Shown: positions 46,173 to 61,215 of the stretch, one piece after another | Layout of the letters: the number at the start of each line of letters is the position of its first letter | Numbering within the stretch: the first letter of the stretch is position 1 | NCBI RefSeq assembly: GCF_017352135.1 | Contig: NZ_CP071454.1 | Span: forward strand, 4,179,001 to 4,243,000 | Length of the DNA stretch: 64,000 nt | Reading direction: 5' to 3' | From: Rhizobium lentis | GTDB taxonomy: Bacteria > Pseudomonadota > Alphaproteobacteria > Rhizobiales > Rhizobiaceae | Position numbers and translations under genes: made by a program | Notes under the pieces: model-generated | Database searches by the model: none | What the model was told of the DNA's origin: nothing | The model's input: only the letters and a program-made list of their open reading frames with translations

Positions 46173-46223
46173 TCACGACATTTGGTCTTGCCAAGCGCCA
46201 CACCCGCCGGATAATTGCGCCAA

Positions 46224-46386
46224 CCCTGTTGGGAGAATCCGGTGCTTTCGCCACCGGTGCCGAAGGAGCAACCGCCCCGGAAACTCTCAGGCCAAAGGAC
46301 CAGCAAGGGGCAGACGGAACTCTGGAGAGAAGCGTTCTCGAAACGCTCGCCGAAGGGATAACAATCTCAGGCGTCAAGGACAGAGG
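46224..46386 (+). ncRNA. Tandem glycine riboswitch
   Basis: Two glycine aptamers lie head to tail. The first (about 46224-46310) has GGGAGAATCC, GCCGAAGGAGCAA, CTCTCAGGCC and AAAGGAC. The second (46318-46386) starts CTCTGGAGAG, has CGCCGAAGGGATAACAA and ATCTCAGGCG, and closes with CAGAG. The short linker between them is normal for the class. In this family glycine turns on gcv expression. It stands about 85 bases before gcvT. Confidence 0.95.

Positions 46387-47995: not shown

Positions 47996-47996
<1 letters not shown>
47634..47996 (+). CDS. gcvH: Glycine cleavage system H protein
   Basis: The 120-residue carrier has the lipoylation site in [17 protein letters not shown] (the lysine of VKAA) within the usual hammerhead fold: [25 protein letters not shown] and [13 protein letters not shown]. 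It shuttles the aminomethyl intermediate between GcvP, GcvT and the L protein. LipB, encoded in this window, would attach the octanoyl precursor. Its TAA overlaps the gcvP ATG by one base (TAATG). Confidence 0.97.
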
Positions 47997-50901: not shown

Positions 50902-51073
50902 ACCCATGCTTCACCATTCCATGCGCCGCAAGGGCCGGACGCGGCGCAGGCCATCGCGAGGCACAGGATTCAAATTTAACCTTTCTTAGCAAGTCTCTGT
51001 TAGCAATTCGAAATGGGCGGTTTCCATTCATCATGGATGTTGCCGTTGATCTCTGTTTTGCGTGCGGGTTCTT

Positions 51074-52114
51074 ATGCGTCGATCGGCTGTGCCAGCAATT
51101 CTCCTCGCCACCCTGATCCTGTCGGGATGCTCCACAAGCTCCGGCGCTGAAGATGTACTCACACCTGTAGCGTCGAAAGAAACGACCAGTGCCATCGCCG
51201 AGACGAGCGGCCCGATACCGGCCGCCGCCGTGGGCGATGCCGCCTCGCCGTCAAGCCCACCGCAGCAACCGTTGAGCTGGGCCGGACCGGTTCCTCAGCC
51301 GCAGGCGCTGGTGCCGGCTGAAAGACCTGTCGGCATGCCGATGCCGACGGAAAGGCCGGTTGCGATGATGATGCCCGACGCCCCGGATGTTGATCCCGAT
51401 GCGGACAGGAAATCGCCGGCACGCTCGCGAATCTACAGCCACCGCTTCCGGGATGCAAAGCCGATCAACTTCGGCAGGACCTCACCGAGAAAGCTTGCCG
51501 TACATGGCGTCGACGTCTCGCGTTGGCAGGGCGAGATCGACTGGGAGACTTTGCGCCAGCAGGGGGCTAACTTCGTCTACATCAAGGCGACGGATGGCGG
51601 CGATCACCTCGATCCGATGTTCAGGAAGAACTGGCGCCGCGCCAAGGAAGCCGGCCTGAAACATGGCGCCTATCACTTCTTCTACTGGTGCCGCACAGCC
51701 GGCGAGCAGGCCGACTGGTTCATCCGCAATGTGCCGAAGGAAGCAAACGCTCTGCCGCCCGTCATCGACGTCGAATGGAACGGCGAATCGAGCTGCAAGC
51801 GACGCATCTCCCCGGCTCGCGTCCGGGAAAAGATGCAGGTCTTCATGGACAAGCTCGAGCGCCATTATGGTCAGCGCCCGATCATCTACACCGCGCCGGA
51901 CTTCTATCGAGACAATCTGAAGGGCCAAATGCTCGACTATCCCTTCTGGCTGCGCTCGGTCGCCGCCCACCCCTCCAAGGTCTATCCCGGCCGCAAGTGG
52001 GTGTTCTGGCAGTATTCCGGCTCCGGCCTCTCCGACGGCGTCGACGGCAAGATTGACCTCAACGTCTTCAACGGAAGCGAAAGCGACTGGCACGACTGGG
52101 TAGCATCGCGTTAA
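51074..52114 (+). CDS. Glycoside hydrolase family 25 (lysozyme-like) lipoprotein
   Basis: The 346-residue protein has a lipoprotein signal (MRRSAVPAILLATLILSGC) and a Pro/Met-rich linker, then a GH25 barrel: VHGVDVSRWQGEIDWETLRQQG, FVYIKATDGGDHLDP, GAYHFFYW and the catalytic DVEW of PPVIDVEWNGESSCK. It should cut peptidoglycan glycan strands in the envelope. The IS481-like remnant begins exactly at its stop. A GTG at 51062 is an alternative start. Confidence 0.9.
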   Translation: MRRSAVPAILLATLILSGCSTSSGAEDVLTPVASKETTSAIAETSGPIPAAAVGDAASPSSPPQQPLSWAGPVPQPQALVPAERPVGMPMPTERPVAMMMPDAPDVDPDADRKSPARSRIYSHRFRDAKPINFGRTSPRKLAVHGVDVSRWQGEIDWETLRQQGANFVYIKATDGGDHLDPMFRKNWRRAKEAGLKHGAYHFFYWCRTAGEQADWFIRNVPKEANALPPVIDVEWNGESSCKRRISPARVREKMQVFMDKLERHYGQRPIIYTAPDFYRDNLKGQMLDYPFWLRSVAAHPSKVYPGRKWVFWQYSGSGLSDGVDGKIDLNVFNGSESDWHDWVASR

Positions 52115-52290
52115 TCTCGAAAGCCTGAACGCCCATGTCCTTGCCTTCGTCACAGCCTATAACTGTGCAAAGGACCTCAAGGCTTTGCGGTGGCGAACGC
52201 CCTACCAGGCAATCTGCGATGCCTGGACAAAAGACACCTCAATCTTCAAAATCAAATCCGCACCAGCTCATTAGGGGGATCCCTTCTATG
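52112..52290 (+). mobile_element. IS481-type transposase C-terminal remnant
   Basis: An open stretch with no start reads SLNAHVLAFVTAYNCAKDLKALRWRTPYQAICDAW..., matching the C-terminal signature of IS481-like transposases (FVxAYNFARRLKTLxGLTPYEF-type). A frameshift follows before an NPHQLIRGIP ending in another frame. The 5' part of the element and its terminal repeats are missing. The rest of the gap to 52654 holds no convincing gene. Confidence 0.75.
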
Positions 52291-52654
52291 GCGCGAAGCG
52301 CTCTCGGTGCGAAACGGGAGCCCGGGCGGTTGGTGACGCCGAGATCCATGGGTATCCCGGTGATCGCAACTTGAGATTGCCCACGTACGGCTCATCGGCT
52401 GCGACCTGCATATAGGTGCGCTGAGGAATGTCGGTATGCCGACGTATGGCGCCAGTCTCGTGCCGTTCTTTCCGAAACCTCTCACCGAATATCGCACCAC
52501 CATTGGCGTCCGCGAAATCTGCGCGCAACTATTCGAGTCGGTTTTTGTCCCACACCATGCGCATATGTCTTAGCTTCGGTCCCGTCTCAGCCGACAAAGG
52601 GGTTGAGAAGGTAATTGGTATCGTTGTAGCAATTGCTATCAATGAGAAATCGAC

Positions 52655-53818
52655 ATGATCGCTGCAAAACCCAATTTACGTGTTTCCCGACTCTCTGCCC
52701 CGCCCATTCCTTCCGTCATTGCCTGGAGCCGCGAATATAAAGGGAACAAGGGGCCGCTCATCGATCTATCGCAAGCCGTACCCGGCTATCCCGCCCATCC
52801 GGAGATGCTTCGCCGGCTTGCCGAGGCGGCCGGACAACAGGCGATGACAGGCTACGGTCCAATCGAAGGCGAGCCCCTGTTACGCAAGACCTATGCAGCA
52901 CATCTCGCCGCGCTGTACGGCGCCGACCTTTCCGAAGGCAATATCCACATCACCGCCGGCTGCAATCAGGCGTTCATGTGCGCGGCGATCGCCCTTGCTG
53001 GCGCGGGCGATACCGTGGCTCTCACCAATCCCTTTTATTTCAATCACGATACGACGCTGTCGATGCTGGGGATCGGACGTCGATTGGTTGAGTGCGATCC
53101 TGCCAACGGTTTTCTGCCTAACCTGAGTTCGATCGAAGCAGCACTTGCGGCCGGCGCCAAGGTGCTGGCAGTCGTCTCACCCAACAATCCCACCGGAGCG
53201 GTATATCCGCCAAGCCTGCTGCACGAGCTTTTTGTTCTTTGCCGGAAGCATGGCACCTGGCTGATCCTTGATGAAACCTATCGCGATTTCCTGGGCGAGG
53301 ATTACGGCCGGCCGCACTCACTCCTGTCCGAGCCGGGTTGGGAGGACACGGTCGTCCTTCTTTACAGTTTTTCGAAATCCTTTTGCATCCCCGGCCACAG
53401 GCTGGGTGCCATCACGGCAGGACCCAAGCTCGTCGCCGAGATCGCCAAGGTGATGGACAATATGCAGATCTGCGCGCCGCGCTCGGCTCAGATCGCCGTT
53501 GCATCGGCTATCCCCGCGCTTGCCGATTGGCGGGCCAGCAACCGGCTGGAAATCGCGCGCCGGGCGGATGCGTTGAAGCTGGTCTTTTCCAGCTTGCATG
53601 ATTGGGAAATAGGAGCGATCGGCGCCTATTTCGCCTTCGTCCGCCACCCTTTCGCCGATCGATCATCTTCAGAGATCGCCGAAAGACTCGCCAGGGAATC
53701 GGGCATTGTCTGTTTGCCCGGCGCCTATTTCGGCGAAGGACAAGAGCATTACCTCAGACTTGCCTTTGCCAATGCGGATGTTGCATCGATAGGGCTATTG
53801 TCGGAGCGGCTCCGCTAG
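52655..53818 (+). CDS. PLP-dependent aminotransferase (class I/II)
   Basis: The 387-residue protein has the fold-type I pattern: TAGCNQAFMCAAIAL, SPNNPTGAVYPPSLLHEL, LILDETYRDF with the PLP-contacting Asp and Tyr, and the PLP lysine in LLYSFSKSFCIPGHRLG. The substrate is an amino acid, not identifiable. Its 3' end overlaps the convergent flavin reductase gene by four bases. It probably deaminates the amino acid product made by the neighbouring monooxygenase unit. Confidence 0.9.
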   Translation: MIAAKPNLRVSRLSAPPIPSVIAWSREYKGNKGPLIDLSQAVPGYPAHPEMLRRLAEAAGQQAMTGYGPIEGEPLLRKTYAAHLAALYGADLSEGNIHITAGCNQAFMCAAIALAGAGDTVALTNPFYFNHDTTLSMLGIGRRLVECDPANGFLPNLSSIEAALAAGAKVLAVVSPNNPTGAVYPPSLLHELFVLCRKHGTWLILDETYRDFLGEDYGRPHSLLSEPGWEDTVVLLYSFSKSFCIPGHRLGAITAGPKLVAEIAKVMDNMQICAPRSAQIAVASAIPALADWRASNRLEIARRADALKLVFSSLHDWEIGAIGAYFAFVRHPFADRSSSEIAERLARESGIVCLPGAYFGEGQEHYLRLAFANADVASIGLLSERLR

Positions 53819-54333
53819 AACTGGCAATCGACCTCCGCCGGAAGTTCACGATAGCCGCCGCGCCAGTAGATGAGCGGCCCTATGCCTTGTCGGACTTGGA
53901 TGGCGCAAATATGTCCGATCAGAATCGCATGGGAATGATGGTGGAATGCCGTTTCGAGCTTGCAGTCCAGCACGGTAAGAGCGTTTTCGAGAACGGGCGC
54001 GCCAGTCCTGAGGCGATACCATCCCGCATTACCGAAGCGTTCCACGCCCTTGCGTCCGTCGAAACCTGCAAAGGATTGCGCCACCTGCTGCTGGTCGGCC
54101 GCGAGCACGTTGACACAGAAACAGCCGTACCGCTGCAATACCGGCCACGAGGAAGATGCGCGGTTGACACTGACGATAACGGAGGGCACCTCCGCCGAAA
54201 ATGAAGAGACCGAGGTTGCGGTGAAGCCGGTGTGGTCTTGTCCGTCGCCTACCGTGATCACACTGACCGCACCCGCCAGATGACGCATCGAAAGCTTGAA
54301 ATCTGCTCCGCTGATCAAAGCCGCTGCACTCAT
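53815..54333 (-). CDS. Flavin reductase family protein (partner of LLM monooxygenase)
   Basis: The 172-residue protein is the short FMN reductase type: MRHLAGAVSVITVGDG, HTGFTATSVSSFSAEVPSVIVSVNRASSSWPVL and the late GHICAIQVRQGIGPLIYWRGGYREL. It reduces FMN with NAD(P)H for a two-component monooxygenase. Its ATG overlaps the stop of the LLM gene (ATGA), the arrangement seen in NtaA/NtaB and SnaA/SnaC-type pairs. Confidence 0.92.
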   Translation of the reverse strand: MSAAALISGADFKLSMRHLAGAVSVITVGDGQDHTGFTATSVSSFSAEVPSVIVSVNRASSSWPVLQRYGCFCVNVLAADQQQVAQSFAGFDGRKGVERFGNAGWYRLRTGAPVLENALTVLDCKLETAFHHHSHAILIGHICAIQVRQGIGPLIYWRGGYRELPAEVDCQF

Positions 54334-55685
54334 CGGGCCGGCGTCTGCGTTTTGGCAAAACGGTTTGCCGGCATTGAAAGACCGAGGTTTTCGCGCAGGG
54401 TCCTTCCCTCATATTCCTCGCGGAACAGACCGCGGCGGCGAAGCTCGGGCAGGACGAGCCCCACGAAATCGTCGAGGCTGGACGGCAGGGTCGGGAACAT
54501 CAGGATAAAGCCATCGGCAGCCCGCGTCTCGAACCATTCCTCCATAAAGTCGGCGATCTGGGTGGGCGTACCTGTAATGCCATTTCCGGTATGCTTCTCG
54601 GCATAGTGCCGGATGAGCTCGCCGACGGTATGGCCGCTCCTGACGAAACCGACCAGTTCGTCGAACAAGGCGCGTGAACCCTTCGGCGCCGCCGGAAGCC
54701 GATCCATGGGGAAGGGTTTATCGAGCGGCACGTCGCGCAAGTCCGCTTCCAGGAATTCGGAAAGCATCAACCGGCCAACATCAGGATGCATCTTGTCGAT
54801 CAGATAGTCGACCTTCGCTTTTGCCTCGGCTTCCGTTTCACCGACGTTGAGAACGATGCCCGGCATGATCTTCAGGTCGTCGGCATCGCGCCCATAGGCC
54901 GGCATCCGGCTCTTGACGTTTTCGTAGAAGGCCCTGTTCCGCTCGATATTCGACGCGAGGCTGAAGACGATCTCGGCAGTGCGCGCCGCCATGTCCATTC
55001 CGGGTTCCGAACCGCCGGCCTGGGCGATGACGGGACGGCCTTGGGGTGTTCGCGCAATGTTGAGGGGTCCGCGGACCTGGAAATGCTTGCCTTTGTGATT
55101 GAGCGTGTGGTGCTTGTCCTTGTCATAATAGACACCGTTTTCGCGGTCGAGAAGCAGAGCACCTTCCTCGAAGCTGTCCCACAGGCCGAAAACGACATCG
55201 ACGAATTCATTGCCGCGCTCATAGCGGAGCGCGTGCGGATCAAGTCCCTCGCGATTGAAGTTGTAGCCGGTTTCGTCATGGTCGGAGGTGACGACGTTCC
55301 AGCAGACGCGCCCGTTGCTCAGATGGTCGATCGAGGCGAACAGGCGGGCGACATTGTATGGCTCGTAATAACTTGTCGACACCGTCGCAACGAGACCGAG
55401 ATTGCTGGTCGTGACCGCCAATGCTGATAGCAGTGAGAGGGGTTCGAAGCGATTCATCTTGGTCGGAATGCGGGCAAGCGCATTCGGATCACCGACGGCG
55501 GCAGCCGGAGAATCCGCCATGAACATGAAATCGAACTTGGCCGCCTCGGATCGTTTGGCGACACCGAGCAGATGGGCGAAGTCATTGGCGCCGCCGACAT
55601 CGCTGGCCGGATGCAGCCACGAGGCCGGATGAAAGCCGAAAGTGTAGACGAAGGTCCCAAGTTTCATCTTGTCGGTTCGCGCCAT
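54330..55685 (-). CDS. LLM class flavin-dependent monooxygenase (NtaA/SnaA/DszA family)
   Basis: The 451-residue protein has the group C monooxygenase pattern: FHPASWLHPASDVGGANDFAHLLGVAKRSEAAKFDFMFMAD, TSTSYYEPYNVARLFASIDHLSNGRVCWNVVTS and GSEPGMDMAARTAEIVF. It uses FMNH2 from the adjacent reductase and oxygen to attack a C-N or C-S bond. NtaA acts on nitrilotriacetate, others on sulfur compounds; the substrate here is open. Start MARTDKMKLGTF; an inner ATG six codons later is possible. Confidence 0.92.
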   Translation of the reverse strand: MARTDKMKLGTFVYTFGFHPASWLHPASDVGGANDFAHLLGVAKRSEAAKFDFMFMADSPAAAVGDPNALARIPTKMNRFEPLSLLSALAVTTSNLGLVATVSTSYYEPYNVARLFASIDHLSNGRVCWNVVTSDHDETGYNFNREGLDPHALRYERGNEFVDVVFGLWDSFEEGALLLDRENGVYYDKDKHHTLNHKGKHFQVRGPLNIARTPQGRPVIAQAGGSEPGMDMAARTAEIVFSLASNIERNRAFYENVKSRMPAYGRDADDLKIMPGIVLNVGETEAEAKAKVDYLIDKMHPDVGRLMLSEFLEADLRDVPLDKPFPMDRLPAAPKGSRALFDELVGFVRSGHTVGELIRHYAEKHTGNGITGTPTQIADFMEEWFETRAADGFILMFPTLPSSLDDFVGLVLPELRRRGLFREEYEGRTLRENLGLSMPANRFAKTQTPAR

Positions 55686-55766
55686 TGAGCTCTCCCCTTA
55701 TGCATGCTGTGGCCGCGCAAATTATCACCAGGCGCAAATTTTCATCAACATCGCGGCGCTAAGGTC

Positions 55767-55787
55767 CGTTTTAGATTTTCTAAAACG
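55767..55787. promoter_or_regulatory. Near-perfect inverted repeat upstream of the LLM operon
   Basis: CGTTTTAGA (55767-55775), TTT and TCTAAAACG (55779-55787) form 9-bp arms about 80-100 bases upstream of the LLM start codon and next to the LysR stop. It resembles the TTTAGAA-type sites of rhizobial iron regulators in sequence, but the spacing differs. It is probably the operator of the LLM unit. Confidence 0.6.
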
Positions 55788-55788
55788 T

Positions 55789-56751
55789 TCACTTGGGGGC
55801 TGACACCAAAGCCTGCTGACGGGAAATGGCGACGAGCCAGTCGCGGAATTCGCGGCCGCGCGGCTTTTGCAGTGCCGCGCGGTCCCAGGCGAGAAAGTAG
55901 CTTTCGCGCAGCGGAATCCGCATGTCGACGGGAGTGACGAGCGTCTGCGCCTCGAGCTCATCGGTAATCATCGACATCTGCGCGAGGACGACGCCACGCT
56001 TGTTGACGGCTGCATCGATCGCGCTGCTCGACAGGGTAAAGGAGAGGCCGGGCGTCGAGGCGTCGAACGGTATACCGGCCATGGCCGCGAACTCCGCCCA
56101 GCTTGGGTAAGGCGTGAAGTGCCTTTCCCACTCGACATGCAGAAGCGGCTGCTCGAAGAGATCCCGGGCCACGTGCGCGCGATCCTGCATTAGCGACGGC
56201 GAGCAGACAGGCACGACCCAATCGCGAAACAGTTCAGTATAATGGTCGTGCTGAAGGACGTCCGACCCGTAGCTTACGCGGAAATCGACATCGTCGAAAC
56301 CGATCCTGGGCTCCTTGTCCCGTCCAATAATTCTCACTTGAACATCGGGGTGTAGGGCCTGCCAGTCGAAGATTCGCCTGCCGATCCATTTGTTGACGAC
56401 GGAAGAAAGCGCGCTAAGGACCAGCGGCGTCTCGTTGCGTGCCCTTTCCAATAACTGCTGAGCGAACGCAAATTGCTCAAATCCCTTCGAAATCTCCTGA
56501 TGATAGAGCCGGCCCCATGCGGTCAGCTCAACGGTTCGCCCGCTCCGCTCCAGTAAGGAAACTCCAAGAAAACTTTCGATCTTGTGAATTTGCTGGCTGA
56601 TTGCCCCCGGCGAGACCTTGAGCTCCAGTGCCGCAGCCGTCACGCCGCCGCAGCGCCCCACCGCCTCGAAGGCTTGCAGACCCTTGAGCGGGATCGTCTT
56701 GAAGCGCTCATCGATCACTTGCAGAACCTCCAGTGGTGTGCGCCAACTCAA
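55789..56751 (-). CDS. LysR family transcriptional regulator
   Basis: The 320-residue protein has an N-terminal winged helix (IPLKGLQAFEAVGRCGGVTAAALELKVSPGAISQQIHKIESFLG, then ERSGRTVELTAWG) and a LysR substrate domain ending RLLRESYFLAW-type. The GcvA-like spacing of its helix suggests amino acid-related control, which is only an inference. It overlaps the upstream GntR gene by four bases and lies next to the LLM operon. Confidence 0.92.
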   Translation of the reverse strand: MSWRTPLEVLQVIDERFKTIPLKGLQAFEAVGRCGGVTAAALELKVSPGAISQQIHKIESFLGVSLLERSGRTVELTAWGRLYHQEISKGFEQFAFAQQLLERARNETPLVLSALSSVVNKWIGRRIFDWQALHPDVQVRIIGRDKEPRIGFDDVDFRVSYGSDVLQHDHYTELFRDWVVPVCSPSLMQDRAHVARDLFEQPLLHVEWERHFTPYPSWAEFAAMAGIPFDASTPGLSFTLSSSAIDAAVNKRGVVLAQMSMITDELEAQTLVTPVDMRIPLRESYFLAWDRAALQKPRGREFRDWLVAISRQQALVSAPK

Positions 56752-57452
56752 TTTGCCATCGGATGAAACGTCCCTGCGAACTGGAACCGGTCGCCTGGAT
56801 GGATAATCTCGACATATGTCACTGTCCGGCCGTTCTGCCAGGTCTGCCGGATGAGGCTAAGGCACGCCTGGCCTCTTTCTGTCTCCAGCATTCGCGCCGT
56901 CGCCGTATCGGCCGAGACGGCGCGGATGACGTGTTTGGCCTTGGACCAGGGAACTTCCGCAAGCAGCCATTTGCCGGGCGGGATCGAGGCGAAGCTCTCG
57001 TCGCGCGCACGTGGGACGGCGTCGAGCATGATGATCCGCCGTTCGATGGCATTGGGTCTGCCGTCCACGATATGTAGGCATTGAAGCCTGAGTATCTCCG
57101 CATCGGGAGCTTCCGACAGCTGTTGTGCGTCCGTTTCTCCAAGGCGTTCGACTTTACGGGTGAGAAGCTCGAAGCGGTGTTCGTGCCCGGCCAGTTCCGC
57201 TTCGGTGCTGATATCCTGAATATCCATTACCGTGCGGTCGATCTGGGGCGACGCAACAAACGAACCGGTCTTGCGCCTTCTGACGATCATGCCGCGTTCG
57301 ACCAGAGCCGACAGTGCCTTGCTGACAGTCATGCGCGAGCATTGATATTCCGCGACCAGTTCATGTTCTACGGGAATACGGTCGCCGGGCCGCCAATCGC
57401 CGCTGATGATCTTCGCCTCGATATCCATGTAAATACGCTGATAAATCGACAC
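56748..57452 (-). CDS. GntR family regulator, HutC subfamily
   Basis: From GTG 57452 the 234-residue protein begins VSIYQRIYMDIEAKIISGDWRPGDRIPVEHELVAEYQCSRMTVSKAL, a classic GntR helix-turn-helix, and continues into a UTRA ligand domain (ARMLETERGQACLSLIRQTWQNGRTVTYVE) as in HutC. An ATG at 57533 would add 27 residues not seen in the family. It is divergent from the ABC transporter and likely represses it. Confidence 0.9.
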   Translation of the reverse strand: MSIYQRIYMDIEAKIISGDWRPGDRIPVEHELVAEYQCSRMTVSKALSALVERGMIVRRRKTGSFVASPQIDRTVMDIQDISTEAELAGHEHRFELLTRKVERLGETDAQQLSEAPDAEILRLQCLHIVDGRPNAIERRIIMLDAVPRARDESFASIPPGKWLLAEVPWSKAKHVIRAVSADTATARMLETERGQACLSLIRQTWQNGRTVTYVEIIHPGDRFQFAGTFHPMAN

Positions 57453-57683
57453 CAAGTCCACACCTCGTTGGGCGTCACGACCAAGTGCCGGAGCGGTCGC
57501 ATCACACCGGCAAAGATTGCCGCCACCCGGCACAATTTTTGCGTTCCTCGACTTTTACATTGACACTCTAAGCCAGCCTATATCTATTTGTATAGTCAAA
57601 AGCGGAGCATAAAAATTCGCGCATTGAAATCAAAATCGGGAACAAAACTCCTCCGTTGGAGGGATAAAACTGGAGAGATGATG
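57453..57683. promoter_or_regulatory. Divergent control region of the amino acid uptake genes
   Basis: The gap holds TTGACA (57560-57565) and CTATTTGTATAG (57584-57595), an AT-rich imperfect inverted repeat (CTAT...ATAG) similar to HutC-type sites. Candidate operator for the GntR protein. Confidence 0.4.
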
Positions 57684-58511
57684 ATGAAGGCAAAGTCACT
57701 GCTGACGGGTCTGGTCGGCGCTGCGTTCCTGTTAGGAGCAGCCTTTTCCGCCCACGCAGCCGATACGCTGGCGGCCGTCAAGGCAGCCGGCACGCTCAAG
57801 GTTGGCACCGAAACGGCCTTCGCACCGTTTGACTATATCGATGCCGGTGAACATACGGGCCTGAACGTCGACCTTTTTGCCGAGATCGCAAAGGAACTTG
57901 GCGTCAAGATCGAGTGGGTGGCACTTCCCTGGGACGGCGTCTTCCCCGCGCTTGAGGCTGGCAAGTTCGATATCGTCGCAGGTCCTGCCACGATCACCAA
58001 GAAGCGCATGGAGCGCTATCGCTTCACGCCGCCGATCGCCGAAGCGACGATTGCCATCCTTAAGAAGGCCGGCGACACGACGATCAGCAAACCGGCAGAC
58101 ATTGCCGGCAAGACGATTGGTGTCGGCAAGGCAACTGCCCAGCTCGACCAGCTGAAGGAATTTTCCGACACGCTGCCGACCAAAGTCGATGTGCGCGAAT
58201 ATCCTGCCTTCACTGAGACCTACGCCGATCTCGCAGCCGGCCGTATTGCCGGCGTTGCCAATTCGCTCCCGAACATCGCCTTTGTCGCCAGCCAGCGAAA
58301 GGGCACTTTCGAAGTCGTCCTGCCGCCTTTCGGAAAGAAGTCTTATTTCGGCTTCATCGGTCTCAAGGACGCCGATCACGCCCCGCTGATGGACGCGATC
58401 GATGCCGCGATGCTCAAGATCAAGGCAGACGGGCGTATGGCAGAGCTGCAAAAGAAGTGGTTCGGTGCGTCTTTCGATACACCGGACGCTGTCAAGGATC
58501 CGGCATTCTAA
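57684..58511 (+). CDS. Amino acid ABC transporter substrate-binding protein
   Basis: The protein has a signal peptide (MKAKSLLTGLVGAAFLLGAAFSAHAAD) and the polar-amino-acid SBP family 3 signature TLKVGTETAFAPFDYIDAGEHTGLNVDLFAEIAKELGVKIEW, then the ligand-carboxylate region ADIAGKTIGVGKATAQLDQL. It is periplasmic. GGAGAG before the triple ATG (57678, 57681, 57684) favours the third start. First gene of the four-gene uptake operon. Confidence 0.92.
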   Translation: MKAKSLLTGLVGAAFLLGAAFSAHAADTLAAVKAAGTLKVGTETAFAPFDYIDAGEHTGLNVDLFAEIAKELGVKIEWVALPWDGVFPALEAGKFDIVAGPATITKKRMERYRFTPPIAEATIAILKKAGDTTISKPADIAGKTIGVGKATAQLDQLKEFSDTLPTKVDVREYPAFTETYADLAAGRIAGVANSLPNIAFVASQRKGTFEVVLPPFGKKSYFGFIGLKDADHAPLMDAIDAAMLKIKADGRMAELQKKWFGASFDTPDAVKDPAF

Positions 58512-58608
58512 TCATTGCTGGTGAAATGCACGCGCCCCGCCATCGGTCGGGGCGCAATTTGCCGTGGGAACAGACGTCACGGCCGCAGCACGCAGGCAAG
58601 CATCGCCC

Positions 58609-59250
58609 ATGTCCACCAAACTTTTCGAACTTCTTCTGCAAGCTTCGATCTACACGGTCACGATCAGCGTGGTTTCAATTCTGATCGGCTTTGCGATCGC
58701 GATCATTGTTTCCGCCATGCTCCTTTCGCGGCAACGGCTTTTCGTGTTGCCGGGGAAGATTTTCATTAGCTTCTTTCGCGGCGTGCCGCTGCTGGTGCAG
58801 CTGTTACTGATCTATAACCTTCTGCCGGTGATCGGCATCAACGTGCCGAGTATCGTTGCGGCCATCGTTGGCCTTTCGCTGTGCACGGCTGCCTATCAGG
58901 CTGAAAATCTGCGCGGCGGTTTTGCCAGCGTCCCCTCGGGCCTTGTCGAGTCCGCCGAGATGGTCGGTCTCACGCCCATGCAGATTTTCCGCCGGATCAA
59001 GGCGCCAATCGCTCTGCGGCTGACCTTTCCGGCGCTCGTCAACGAAGCGATCCTTATTTTGAAGGCTTCTTCGCTGGTCTCCGTTGTCGGGATCGTCGAG
59101 CTGACGCGCATGGCCCAAGACCTTGCCGGCAGCACCTTTCTGCCGCTCGAAATCTTCGCTTCCGCCGGTCTGATCTACCTCGCCATCAATTGGATCGTAG
59201 CACTTGCCGGCGGTCTGATCGAACGATCCCTGCCGGGAGTACCGCGATGA
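58609..59250 (+). CDS. Amino acid ABC transporter permease
   Basis: The 213-residue protein has about five helices and the EAA-loop family signature FRGVPLLVQLLLIYNLLPVIGI, then AYQAENLRGGFASVPSGLVESAEMVGLTPMQIFRRIKAPIALRL. It is a His/Glu/Gln-type inner-membrane permease (HisMQ family). The start MSTKLFELLLQ fits the family better than the in-frame ATG at 58564. It overlaps the next permease gene by four bases (ATGA). Confidence 0.93.
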   Translation: MSTKLFELLLQASIYTVTISVVSILIGFAIAIIVSAMLLSRQRLFVLPGKIFISFFRGVPLLVQLLLIYNLLPVIGINVPSIVAAIVGLSLCTAAYQAENLRGGFASVPSGLVESAEMVGLTPMQIFRRIKAPIALRLTFPALVNEAILILKASSLVSVVGIVELTRMAQDLAGSTFLPLEIFASAGLIYLAINWIVALAGGLIERSLPGVPR

Positions 59251-59915
59251 CGTTCGATATCAATGTGATTTTCAGCCATTTGCCGGAGATCGCCAGCGGT
59301 GCCTTCGTGACAATCGTTATCTGGATCGTCGCCGCTCTTGCCGCTGCCGTTCTGGGTTTCCTTGTCGCTGTCGCGCGGCGTTTTGGCGGGGTGCTCTTGG
59401 ACAGGGCGTTCGGCATTGTCATCGCAGTGCTGCGCGGCACGCCCTTCCTCATTCAGATATTCCTCGTCTACTACGGGGGCCCCTTCATCGGATTGTCGCT
59501 CAATCCGATCCCGGCAGGCGTCGTTGGCCTGTCCATCTACGGCGCGGCCTATTTCAGCGAGATATTCCGCTCGGGCTTTGCCGCCGTCCCGAAGGGGCAT
59601 ATCGAAGCGGGTCTATGCGTTGGCCTGACACACACGCAAATCGTCAGGCGCATATTGCTGCCTGAGATGACCATGCTGGTGCTGCCGCCATCGCTCAACA
59701 TGACGATCATCCTCATGAAGGAGACGGCCGTGTTGTCGATCATCACCGTGCCGGAACTGACGGCAACACTGAGCGCCATCGGATCGCAGCAATATGCATT
59801 TGTCGAAGCGCTTTTTGTCCTCGCCCTCTTCTACTGGGCGCTGGTCGAAATCACCGGCTGGCTCGGTCGTCTCGCCGAAACGAAACTCACCAGATTCAGG
59901 TTTTTCAACATATGA
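59247..59915 (+). CDS. Amino acid ABC transporter permease
   Basis: The 222-residue HisMQ-type permease starts MTFDINVIFSHLPEIASGAF and has VLRGTPFLIQIFLVYYGGPFIG, then FRSGFAAVPKGHIEAGLCVGLTHTQIVRRILLPEMTMLVL. It pairs with the preceding permease to form the membrane channel. It overlaps both neighbours with ATGA junctions, as in a tightly coupled operon. Confidence 0.93.
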   Translation: MTFDINVIFSHLPEIASGAFVTIVIWIVAALAAAVLGFLVAVARRFGGVLLDRAFGIVIAVLRGTPFLIQIFLVYYGGPFIGLSLNPIPAGVVGLSIYGAAYFSEIFRSGFAAVPKGHIEAGLCVGLTHTQIVRRILLPEMTMLVLPPSLNMTIILMKETAVLSIITVPELTATLSAIGSQQYAFVEALFVLALFYWALVEITGWLGRLAETKLTRFRFFNI

Positions 59916-60703
59916 GTGTTCCCGCGATAGCAGTCAAAAATCTTGTCAAGACGTTTGGCGATTCCACCGTACTGAACGGTATCGATCTTGATATCGCGCA
60001 GGGACAGGTTTCCTGCGTGATCGGTCCGTCGGGATCCGGCAAGAGCACGCTGCTGCGCTGCATGGCGTTTCTGGAAGAATCTACAAAGGGGACCATTGCC
60101 GTCAATGGCGAGGTGCTCGGCTTTGCGGAAAATGCGAATGGCGTAAGGGAGCGGCTGCCGGCTGCCGCCAATCGGCGGATTCGCGCCCAGATCGGCATGG
60201 TTTTTCAGCAGTTCAACCTCTGGCCGCACATGACCGCGCTCGGCAACGTCAGCGAGGCGCTGAAGACGGTTCACAAAACGAACCGCAAGGACGCAGAGGA
60301 GCGGGCAATGGCTCAACTCGCCAAGGTCGGTCTCGAGGGTCGGGCAAACCACTATCCGTCACAGCTCTCGGGAGGACAGCAGCAGCGTGTTGCTATCGCG
60401 CGGGCCCTGGCTCTCAACCCGAAGATCATGCTCTTTGACGAACCAACCTCATCACTCGATCCCGAACTGACTGGCGAAGTGCTGAACGTCATGCGCGATC
60501 TCGCCGCCGAAGGCATGACAATGGTCGTCGTTTCCCACGAGATCGGGTTTGCCGCAACGGTCGGCCAGCAGATCATCTTTCTCGATCACGGCAAGGTGCT
60601 GTTCACCGGTTCGCCCCAAGAGGTTTTCAAGCGACCGAGAAACCCGCGCCTCGAGCAGTTTCTTGATACCTATATCGATCGCGGAGCCTCGATGTTGCTG
60701 TGA
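59912..60703 (+). CDS. Amino acid ABC transporter ATP-binding protein
   Basis: The 263-residue ATPase has all ABC motifs: Walker A GPSGSGKST, Q-loop FQQFNLWPHMTALGNV, signature LSGGQQQRVAIARAL, Walker B IMLFDEPTSSLD and the H-loop VVVSHE. It is of the GlnQ/HisP type. It ends the uptake operon; about 206 bases with no gene follow. Confidence 0.95.
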   Translation: MSVPAIAVKNLVKTFGDSTVLNGIDLDIAQGQVSCVIGPSGSGKSTLLRCMAFLEESTKGTIAVNGEVLGFAENANGVRERLPAAANRRIRAQIGMVFQQFNLWPHMTALGNVSEALKTVHKTNRKDAEERAMAQLAKVGLEGRANHYPSQLSGGQQQRVAIARALALNPKIMLFDEPTSSLDPELTGEVLNVMRDLAAEGMTMVVVSHEIGFAATVGQQIIFLDHGKVLFTGSPQEVFKRPRNPRLEQFLDTYIDRGASMLL

Positions 60704-60909: not shown

Positions 60910-61215
60910 GTGAGCATATCGAGTCTTGCAGGCACTGCTCTTTTGGGAATGCGGGCACAGACGACACGGATCAGCGCGATCGCCAGCAACGTCGCAAACA
61001 GCAGCACCCCTGGTTATAACAGGCTGAACACCAGCCTCACCTCTGTTGCCTCAGGCAGCGTAGAGGCCATCGACGGTCCGACGGACTCGGATGTCGATCC
61101 GGCCACCGAACTCACCGACCTGATCGAAGCCGAGCAAAGCTACAAGGCAAACGCCATGTTCTTCGAGACCGGCGCCGACATCTGGGAAATGCTGATGAGC
61201 ATCAAGCGCGACTAG
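60910..61215 (+). CDS. Orphan short flagellar basal body rod-like protein (FlgC-like)
   Basis: The 101-residue protein starts at GTG (VSISSLAGTALLGMRAQTTRISAIASNVANSSTPGYNR) and ends with ELTDLIEAEQSYKANAMFFETGADIWEMLMSI. These are the conserved N- and C-terminal helices of axial rod proteins joined by a very short middle; FlgC is usually about 139 residues. No other flagellar gene is in the window. It may be a moonlighting paralogue or a relic. Confidence 0.75.
   Translation: MSISSLAGTALLGMRAQTTRISAIASNVANSSTPGYNRLNTSLTSVASGSVEAIDGPTDSDVDPATELTDLIEAEQSYKANAMFFETGADIWEMLMSIKRD

Follow-up and report, generated by a model that had tools for sequence, protein, structure and literature searches.

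Monooxygenases of the NtaA/DmoA family, i.e., NtaA, EmoA, CmoJ (YtnJ), DszA, DmoA, LadA and RcaE, belong to the luciferase-like monooxygenase (LLM) class, match the profile TIGR03860 and are co-encoded with a flavin reductase (FR), and the chemistry of the NtaA type includes N-dealkylation. Two described gene sets resemble the one considered here, namely (i) the ytm operon of Bacillus subtilis for CmoJ cysteine salvage, which likewise combines an LLM with an amino-acid importer and a LysR regulator, and (ii) the mid (mimosine) genes of Rhizobium, which share an amino-acid importer, an aminotransferase-fold enzyme and a LysR regulator but are not known to include an LLM, the likeness being one of described gene content. 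The nine genes in question lie in a stretch of 64,000 nucleotides (nt) of Rhizobium lentis (contig NZ_CP071454.1, positions 4,179,001 to 4,243,000; hereafter the window) and encode an aminotransferase (AT), an FR, an LLM of the NtaA/DmoA family, a LysR regulator, a HutC-type GntR regulator and a complete ATP-binding cassette (ABC) importer of the polar-amino-acid type, i.e., a family 3 substrate-binding protein (SBP), two HEQRo permeases (P1 and P2) and an ABC ATPase. In our judgement, the chances are evenly balanced that this cluster is an accessory catabolic module that takes up an imidazole (histidine-derived) compound and oxidises it with the help of FMNH2, the imported molecule being probably small and histidine-like. 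An imidazole compound is proposed because of the HutC-type regulator, the HutC-like box before the importer and the neighbourhood, in relatives, of genes for histidine utilisation (hut) or ergothioneine catabolism (ert), the regulator and its box not being independent of each other as evidence. Uptake followed by FMNH2-dependent oxidation, already put forward in a first-pass annotation of the window, is supported.

The comparison rests on the best 80 of 310 confirmed relatives from a scan of genome contigs (loci designated L, a few with short flanks), where a gene was counted if tblastn gave a match above a set identity at any place in the locus and LLMs were grouped by single linkage at 88% identity. 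The cluster genes co-occur widely in these loci: the SBP, P1 and ATPase stand together beside the LLM in 71 of them, at least one of the three being absent from the other nine, and the separate counts are 72 each for the SBP, P1 and P2, 73 for the ATPase, 53 for LysR and 49 for the FR. A HutC-type GntR, called at a minimum of 33% identity to that of the window or 38% to that of L080, accompanies the importer in 68 of the 71.

HutC of Pseudomonas binds TGTA-N2-TACA (PMC12977541) and HutC is released by urocanate (PMC12772324). The genome of R. lentis encodes four regulators above the HutC cut-off (TIGR02018), one of which is that of the cluster. Upstream of the SBP, ATTTGTATAG is present in 70 of 74 regions, namely those whose SBP match reaches 55% identity or more (with the window and L138-L140 counted, but not weaker matches, e.g., L065 and L068), for a total of 69 occurrences over the 80 loci on both strands. 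Considering the 70 sites listed for the 80 loci and the window, the motif continues as GTCA in 39 (the form of the window), GACA in 24, GGCA in four and GACC or GACG in three, the last being L076, L086 and L087, where the box precedes the LLM and not the importer. As many as 24 of these sites read TGTATAGACA, which is identical to the box that precedes hutI in L079 and to its counterpart in L076; at the matching place in the hut locus of R. lentis itself, between hutF and hutI, stands TGTATATACA.

Genes of the hut system proper are found in seven of the 80 loci, each with HutF, HutI, HutH and HutU, while HutD is counted in six. Five of these loci (L075, L080, L083, L084 and L085) belong to an LLM group of 13 and two (L076 and L079) to a group of four. 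The LLM lies directly 3' of hutD and 5' of the permeases in L076 and L079, L080 runs from the importer through HutC and the LLM to the hut genes, and the HutC model also scores above its cut-off in L084. By rough estimate, a 20-kb stretch placed on a 6.4-Mb genome would meet any one 8-kb cluster about 0.4% of the time, and hut genes in seven loci and two LLM groups are therefore unlikely to be there by chance, although kinship leaves far fewer independent cases than 80. Unlike a hut locus, the window cluster was devoid of HutH, HutU and HutI in profile searches and has the LLM and importer in addition, the hut genes of R. lentis being located on contig C3. As for ert, thiourocanate hydratase, thiohydantoin desulfurase and ErtE are each present in six loci (L070, L071, L072, L078, L081 and L082) and ErtD in two. 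In L070, the sole ert locus scanned, all four score above the NCBIfam cut-offs, and the ert genes and the SBP are transcribed divergently from a common intergenic region. In contrast, neither the hydratase nor the desulfurase was found in the window cluster, and the ert loci all fall within the LLM group of 13.

From gene content, co-occurrence, boxes, neighbours and LLM clade, we infer a substrate class, a reaction, an inducer and an operator function as follows. The importer would take up a small carboxylate, and the HutC-type repressor would occupy the box over the importer promoter until freed by a urocanate-like intermediate. The LLM, provided with FMNH2 by the FR and placed under LysR control, would then oxidise the imported compound, most likely by removal of an N-linked group or by ring opening, and would so yield an intermediate of the hut or ert type. 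Completion could be ensured by the hut enzymes, encoded on another contig in R. lentis, or, in the Rhizobium form, by the AT and formerly an agmatinase-family hydrolase. N-dealkylation is favoured because it belongs to NtaA-type chemistry; oxidation of the ring fits equally well. Since N-pi-methylhistidine is present in Arabidopsis (PMC10285387), it appears a sensible first candidate substrate for a root bacterium. More tentatively, and with somewhat less than even confidence, the cluster may represent a new branch of imidazole catabolism, in which a two-component FMN monooxygenase recruited to the HutC regulon unmasks or opens a modified histidine, e.g., N-methyl-histidine, a hercynine/ergothioneine-type or an imidazole-lactate-type compound, for entry into hut or ert. 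If so, this would be the first LLM enzyme to be linked with histidine utilisation as far as open-access literature listings show; among the matches listed there, mostly titles and beginnings of abstracts, no paper names the cluster or describes an LLM together with hut or ert genes. The flavin monooxygenases of this clade, so far orphans, would thereby gain a function and a link to histidine or ergothioneine turnover in soil.

Several points weigh against an imidazole compound. Genes of other kinds lie beside the same LLM clade, namely GlcD-like (5 of 80 loci), arginase (5), HMG-CoA-lyase-like (2), CaiB (2) and PxpC-like (2), and none of the 54 loci whose LLM groups with the Rhizobium form yielded a hut or ert gene by tblastn. 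The six ert loci, being of one LLM group, probably reflect one event, and the hut neighbours could stem from the importer and regulator instead of the reaction of the LLM. HutC proteins can also take other ligands, such as PCA in Pseudomonas aeruginosa, as well as unlike sites (PMC12772324). The window box TGTATAGTCA is near but not identical to TGTA-N2-TACA, its second half departing from it; TGTATA[GT]ACA was not found in any of the five hut loci with an LLM of the group of 13, two of which (L080 and L084) carry AAGTATATACAT, and L086 and L087 possess the box without a HutC-type gene in the locus. Lastly, an agmatinase-like gene, present in 35 of the 80 loci (41 by clustering of gene calls), points to guanidino acids.

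Given the AT and the agmatinase-like hydrolase in the Rhizobium form, a guanidino compound is a live rival, albeit one we consider unlikely: an arginine-like compound would be imported, transaminated and oxidised by the LLM, e.g., by oxidative decarboxylation of the 2-oxo acid, before an agmatinase-family enzyme releases urea. In agreement with it, the AT is found in 37 loci (25 by clustering) and is associated with the agmatinase-family gene in several orientations, the solved structures nearest to the full-length hydrolase homologue of L067 are 3-guanidinopropionase and guanidinobutyrase, and the arginase genes counted above would find a place. In the window, though, the gap beside an IS481-type scrap is mostly filled by the decayed start of this very gene, which the first-pass annotation had overlooked and whose pieces are 89%, 74% and 54% identical to the L067 gene, with a stop inside one of them. 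In L009 and L139, the gene is full-length, adjoining and divergent from the AT, while L138 and L140 have a truncated form of it; since the other cluster genes remain full-length in the window, L138 and L140, the hydrolase is either dispensable or backed up, an 81% identical paralogue being encoded elsewhere in the genome of R. lentis. Moreover, AT and hydrolase were both found in a single LLM group only, and a guanidino route leaves the HutC-type regulator and the hut and ert neighbours unexplained. In view of the same distribution, transamination as a fixed step, as formerly predicted, is not supported, other loci having GlcD-like, hut or ert genes.

Respective to the monooxygenase, the LLM scores above the TIGR03860 cut-off and its relationships were examined in a tree of 29 proteins, i.e., 15 cluster LLMs, six R. 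lentis paralogues and eight PDB chains, EmoA and NtaA not being included. The cluster LLMs form a separate clade (support 100/100) on a long branch that drew a long-branch warning from the tool. Members of the clade in the tree are 77-95% identical to the window LLM, compared with 43% for 3sdo, 41% for 7e36, 40% for DszA, 39% for YtnJ/CmoJ and up to 46% for the R. lentis paralogues. None of the eight solved relatives exceeding 43%, no known substrate carries over, which agrees with the first-pass view that no close characterised LLM exists; in what was examined, the LLM did not fall firmly with a known enzyme of unrelated function. Transfer of a named function from CmoJ, DszA, DmoA, LadA, RcaE or HcbA1 was rejected, the cluster LLMs standing outside each of these clades, and 3sdo, which bears the nitrilotriacetate name, is likewise outside theirs. 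The EmoA structure 5dqp scored 205 bits, EmoA and NtaA lying outside the tree sample. Pyrimidine use of the RutA type was discarded in view of a RutA score of just 59 bits, and the imidazoleacetate monooxygenase HinF of the histamine route was not taken as the same type, a table in PMC6467879 listing it as a FAD-monooxygenase.

Sulfur salvage, i.e., CmoJ/YxeK-like cleavage of a C-S bond in S-substituted cysteines or thiohistidines, appears very improbable: the identities to CmoJ and DszA and the thio-imidazole nature of the ert neighbours would suit it, but the LLM is placed outside the CmoJ clade and, contrary to the ytm operon with its other salvage enzymes, profile searches of the cluster genes returned neither a sulfoxidase nor an acetyltransferase or a deacetylase. 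Regarding the N- or S-substituted amino acid first envisaged as substrate, the N-substituent may stand, while the S-substituent is not supported, family membership of the LLM and the ert neighbours being the only pointers to it; the pointer to an imidazole compound comes in addition.

The binding protein bears on a further alternative. Over 72 sequences (71 SBP-family proteins of the 80 loci plus the window), Arg109, which we take to be the carboxylate-binding residue, is kept in all and Thr104 in 70, whereas Ser195 occupies in all 72 a position where aligned PDB relatives have Asp, presumably the residue holding the alpha-ammonium group in GlnH-type proteins. As a control, family 3 SBPs were found at 22 places in the R. 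lentis genome, one being the SBP of the cluster, and Asp stands in this column in 11 of the 21 others. The change from Asp to Ser as proof of a missing alpha-ammonium was weakened accordingly to a hint; it suggests an unusual ligand, no more. An enzyme of general unmasking, with the LLM stripping one particular N-linked group (N-methyl, or the carboxyalkyl of opines and glycation products) off a range of amino acids and the downstream pathway being lineage-specific, would accommodate such an SBP, the one LLM clade next to many different downstream genes and the N-dealkylation known for NtaA-type enzymes. We hold it to be rather unlikely, as the control deprives Ser195 of the value of proof and as a single class of compound fits better with the conservation of the HutC-like box and with the hut and ert genes nearby.

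Upstream of the LLM, a second regulatory element is presumed to be the LysR operator of the LLM-FR unit, judging from its conservation. The 160 nt preceding the LLM contain the palindrome TTTAG-N5-CTAAA in 49 of the 53 loci with a LysR match (L060, L061, L063 and L064 being the exceptions) and in four of the 27 without, out of 56 matches overall in 1.66 Mb; a narrower pattern had matched the window only (1 of 81), hence the wider one used for these counts.

The cluster is more than a chance assembly, since the block recurs in many genomes and since the LLM of the window differs from that of L139 by 23 synonymous and three non-synonymous changes; for the FR, the figures are eight and 13, respectively (raw counts in both cases). 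At a strict cut-off, the LLM was present in 81 of 148 genomes of the genus, nine of 297 in the family sample, three of 397 in the order sample, all three within the genus, and one of 385 in the class sample, i.e., the R. lentis genome itself, so that the order and class samples yielded none outside the genus. Neorhizobium, Agrobacterium, Ancylobacter and others are among the 80 loci kept. With E<=1e-150, the LLM was also found in 90 plasmid records, 85 from Rhizobium, including pRL10 of strain 3841; the LLM gene of this strain, Rhizobium johnstonii 3841, is RL_RS29220. The gene set is accessory, patchy in distribution and carried on chromosome or plasmids, and as such a candidate trait for life on roots.

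Other neighbourhoods are worth recording. About 7 kb from the LLM on pRL10 lies a gene for a glutathione-independent formaldehyde dehydrogenase (L107:16269-17353); formaldehyde would be the product of a demethylation, a weak tie to the LLM. L065 and L068 combine an LLM of the same clade and an importer with HMG-CoA-lyase-like and CaiB-type CoA transferase genes (labels partly by eye) and gave no HutC-type match. In L086 and L087, both from Ancylobacter, such an LLM, preceded by a HutC-like box, neighbours biotin-carboxylase-like (by eye) and 5-oxoprolinase/urea-amidolyase-like genes. The hut genes of R. lentis (HutF, I, H, G-like, U and D) extend over C3:397126-411076 (L105:5126-19076) with two HutC-type regulators, adjoining a polar-amino-acid importer and a further HAL-like lyase that lacks Ala-Ser-Gly; HAL-family genes were present in all nine genomes checked. 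On contig C2 (L106:2917-10577, around 190679-192049), a HutC-type regulator is found with a HAL-like lyase whose open reading frame (ORF) lacks Ala-Ser-Gly (the MIO motif), an OsmF-like betaine importer and an ornithine-cyclodeaminase-like gene; this looks like a separate locus for a histidine betaine.

The features of the locus are collected in Table 1.

Table 1. Features of the cluster and its left border, in window positions (cut-offs are those of the respective profile).
Feature	Position	Strand	Basis
IS481-type transposase, C-terminal scrap	52116-52271	+	NF033577, E 0.001, 18.6 bits, profile positions 253-284 of 284
Agmatinase-family (guanidino-acid hydrolase-like) gene, decayed and truncated	52278-52642	-	similarity to L067:13029-14168
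AT, class I/II pyridoxal phosphate-dependent, PRK07550 group	52655-53818	+	NF005732, 585 bits (cut-off 366); PF00155; best PDB 7vrx, 137 bits
FR, RutF/HpaC-like	53815-54333	-	PF01613; RutF TIGR03615, 120 bits, below cut-off 254.75
LLM-class FMN-dependent monooxygenase, NtaA/DmoA family	54330-55685	-	TIGR03860, 516.5 bits (cut-off 279.7)
Palindrome TTTAG-N5-CTAAA, presumed LysR operator of the LLM-FR unit	55770-55784	none	conservation upstream of LLM
LysR regulator, GcvA-like	55789-56751	-	PRK11139, 209 bits, below cut-off 288; PF00126 and PF03466
HutC-type GntR/UTRA regulator, longest ORF	56748-57533	-	TIGR02018, 275 bits (cut-off 220)
HutC-like box ATCTATTTGTATAGTCAA	57582-57599	+	3' side of -35-like TTGACA at 57560-57565
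Family 3 SBP, polar amino acid type	57681-58511	+	PF00497
Importer P1	58609-59250	+	TIGR01726, above cut-off; PF00528
Importer P2	59247-59915	+	TIGR01726, above cut-off; PF00528
Importer ATPase	59912-60703	+	PF00005; GlnQ-like NF007027, 318 bits, below cut-off 379

Profile matches bear out the gene content and order first described for the AT, FR, LLM, LysR, GntR/HutC and importer. The nine genes are situated on contig C1 of the 6.42-Mb, five-contig genome, inside a stretch of lower GC (about 0.56-0.60 vs. 0.60-0.65 in the surroundings), and are bordered by a muramidase-like gene (51062-52114) on one side and Suf-type genes on the other (labels by eye from the ORFs). ATGA-type overlaps of 4 nt, earlier said to join the LLM/FR pair and all four ABC genes, exist at LLM/FR, P1/P2 and P2/ATPase, but the SBP is separated from P1 by a gap of 97 nt, the statement on the ABC genes thus holding at two junctions out of three; the convergent AT and FR also overlap by 4 nt, and the same overlap at GntR/LysR requires LysR to start at the TTG of its longest ORF. 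Compared with a 235-aa orthologue, the true start of the HutC-type regulator is probably near 57455. No known RNA control element was found within the cluster by an Rfam scan at the gathering threshold.

At the borders, the IS481-type scrap noted at first sight on the left matches NF033577 weakly, whereas a Pfam search gave no match at E<=1. The flagellar-like relic reported on the right corresponds to a FlgE-like ORF of 101 aa (60910-61215), with a rod N-terminus fused to a C-terminal domain; its frame is open in all five genomes compared and, non-synonymous differences exceeding synonymous ones (raw counts), it would be weakly constrained at most. Of note, a glycine riboswitch (46220-46312; 63 bits vs. 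a threshold of 32) is located elsewhere in the window, a short way upstream of the ORF at 47996, a glycine dehydrogenase by eye.

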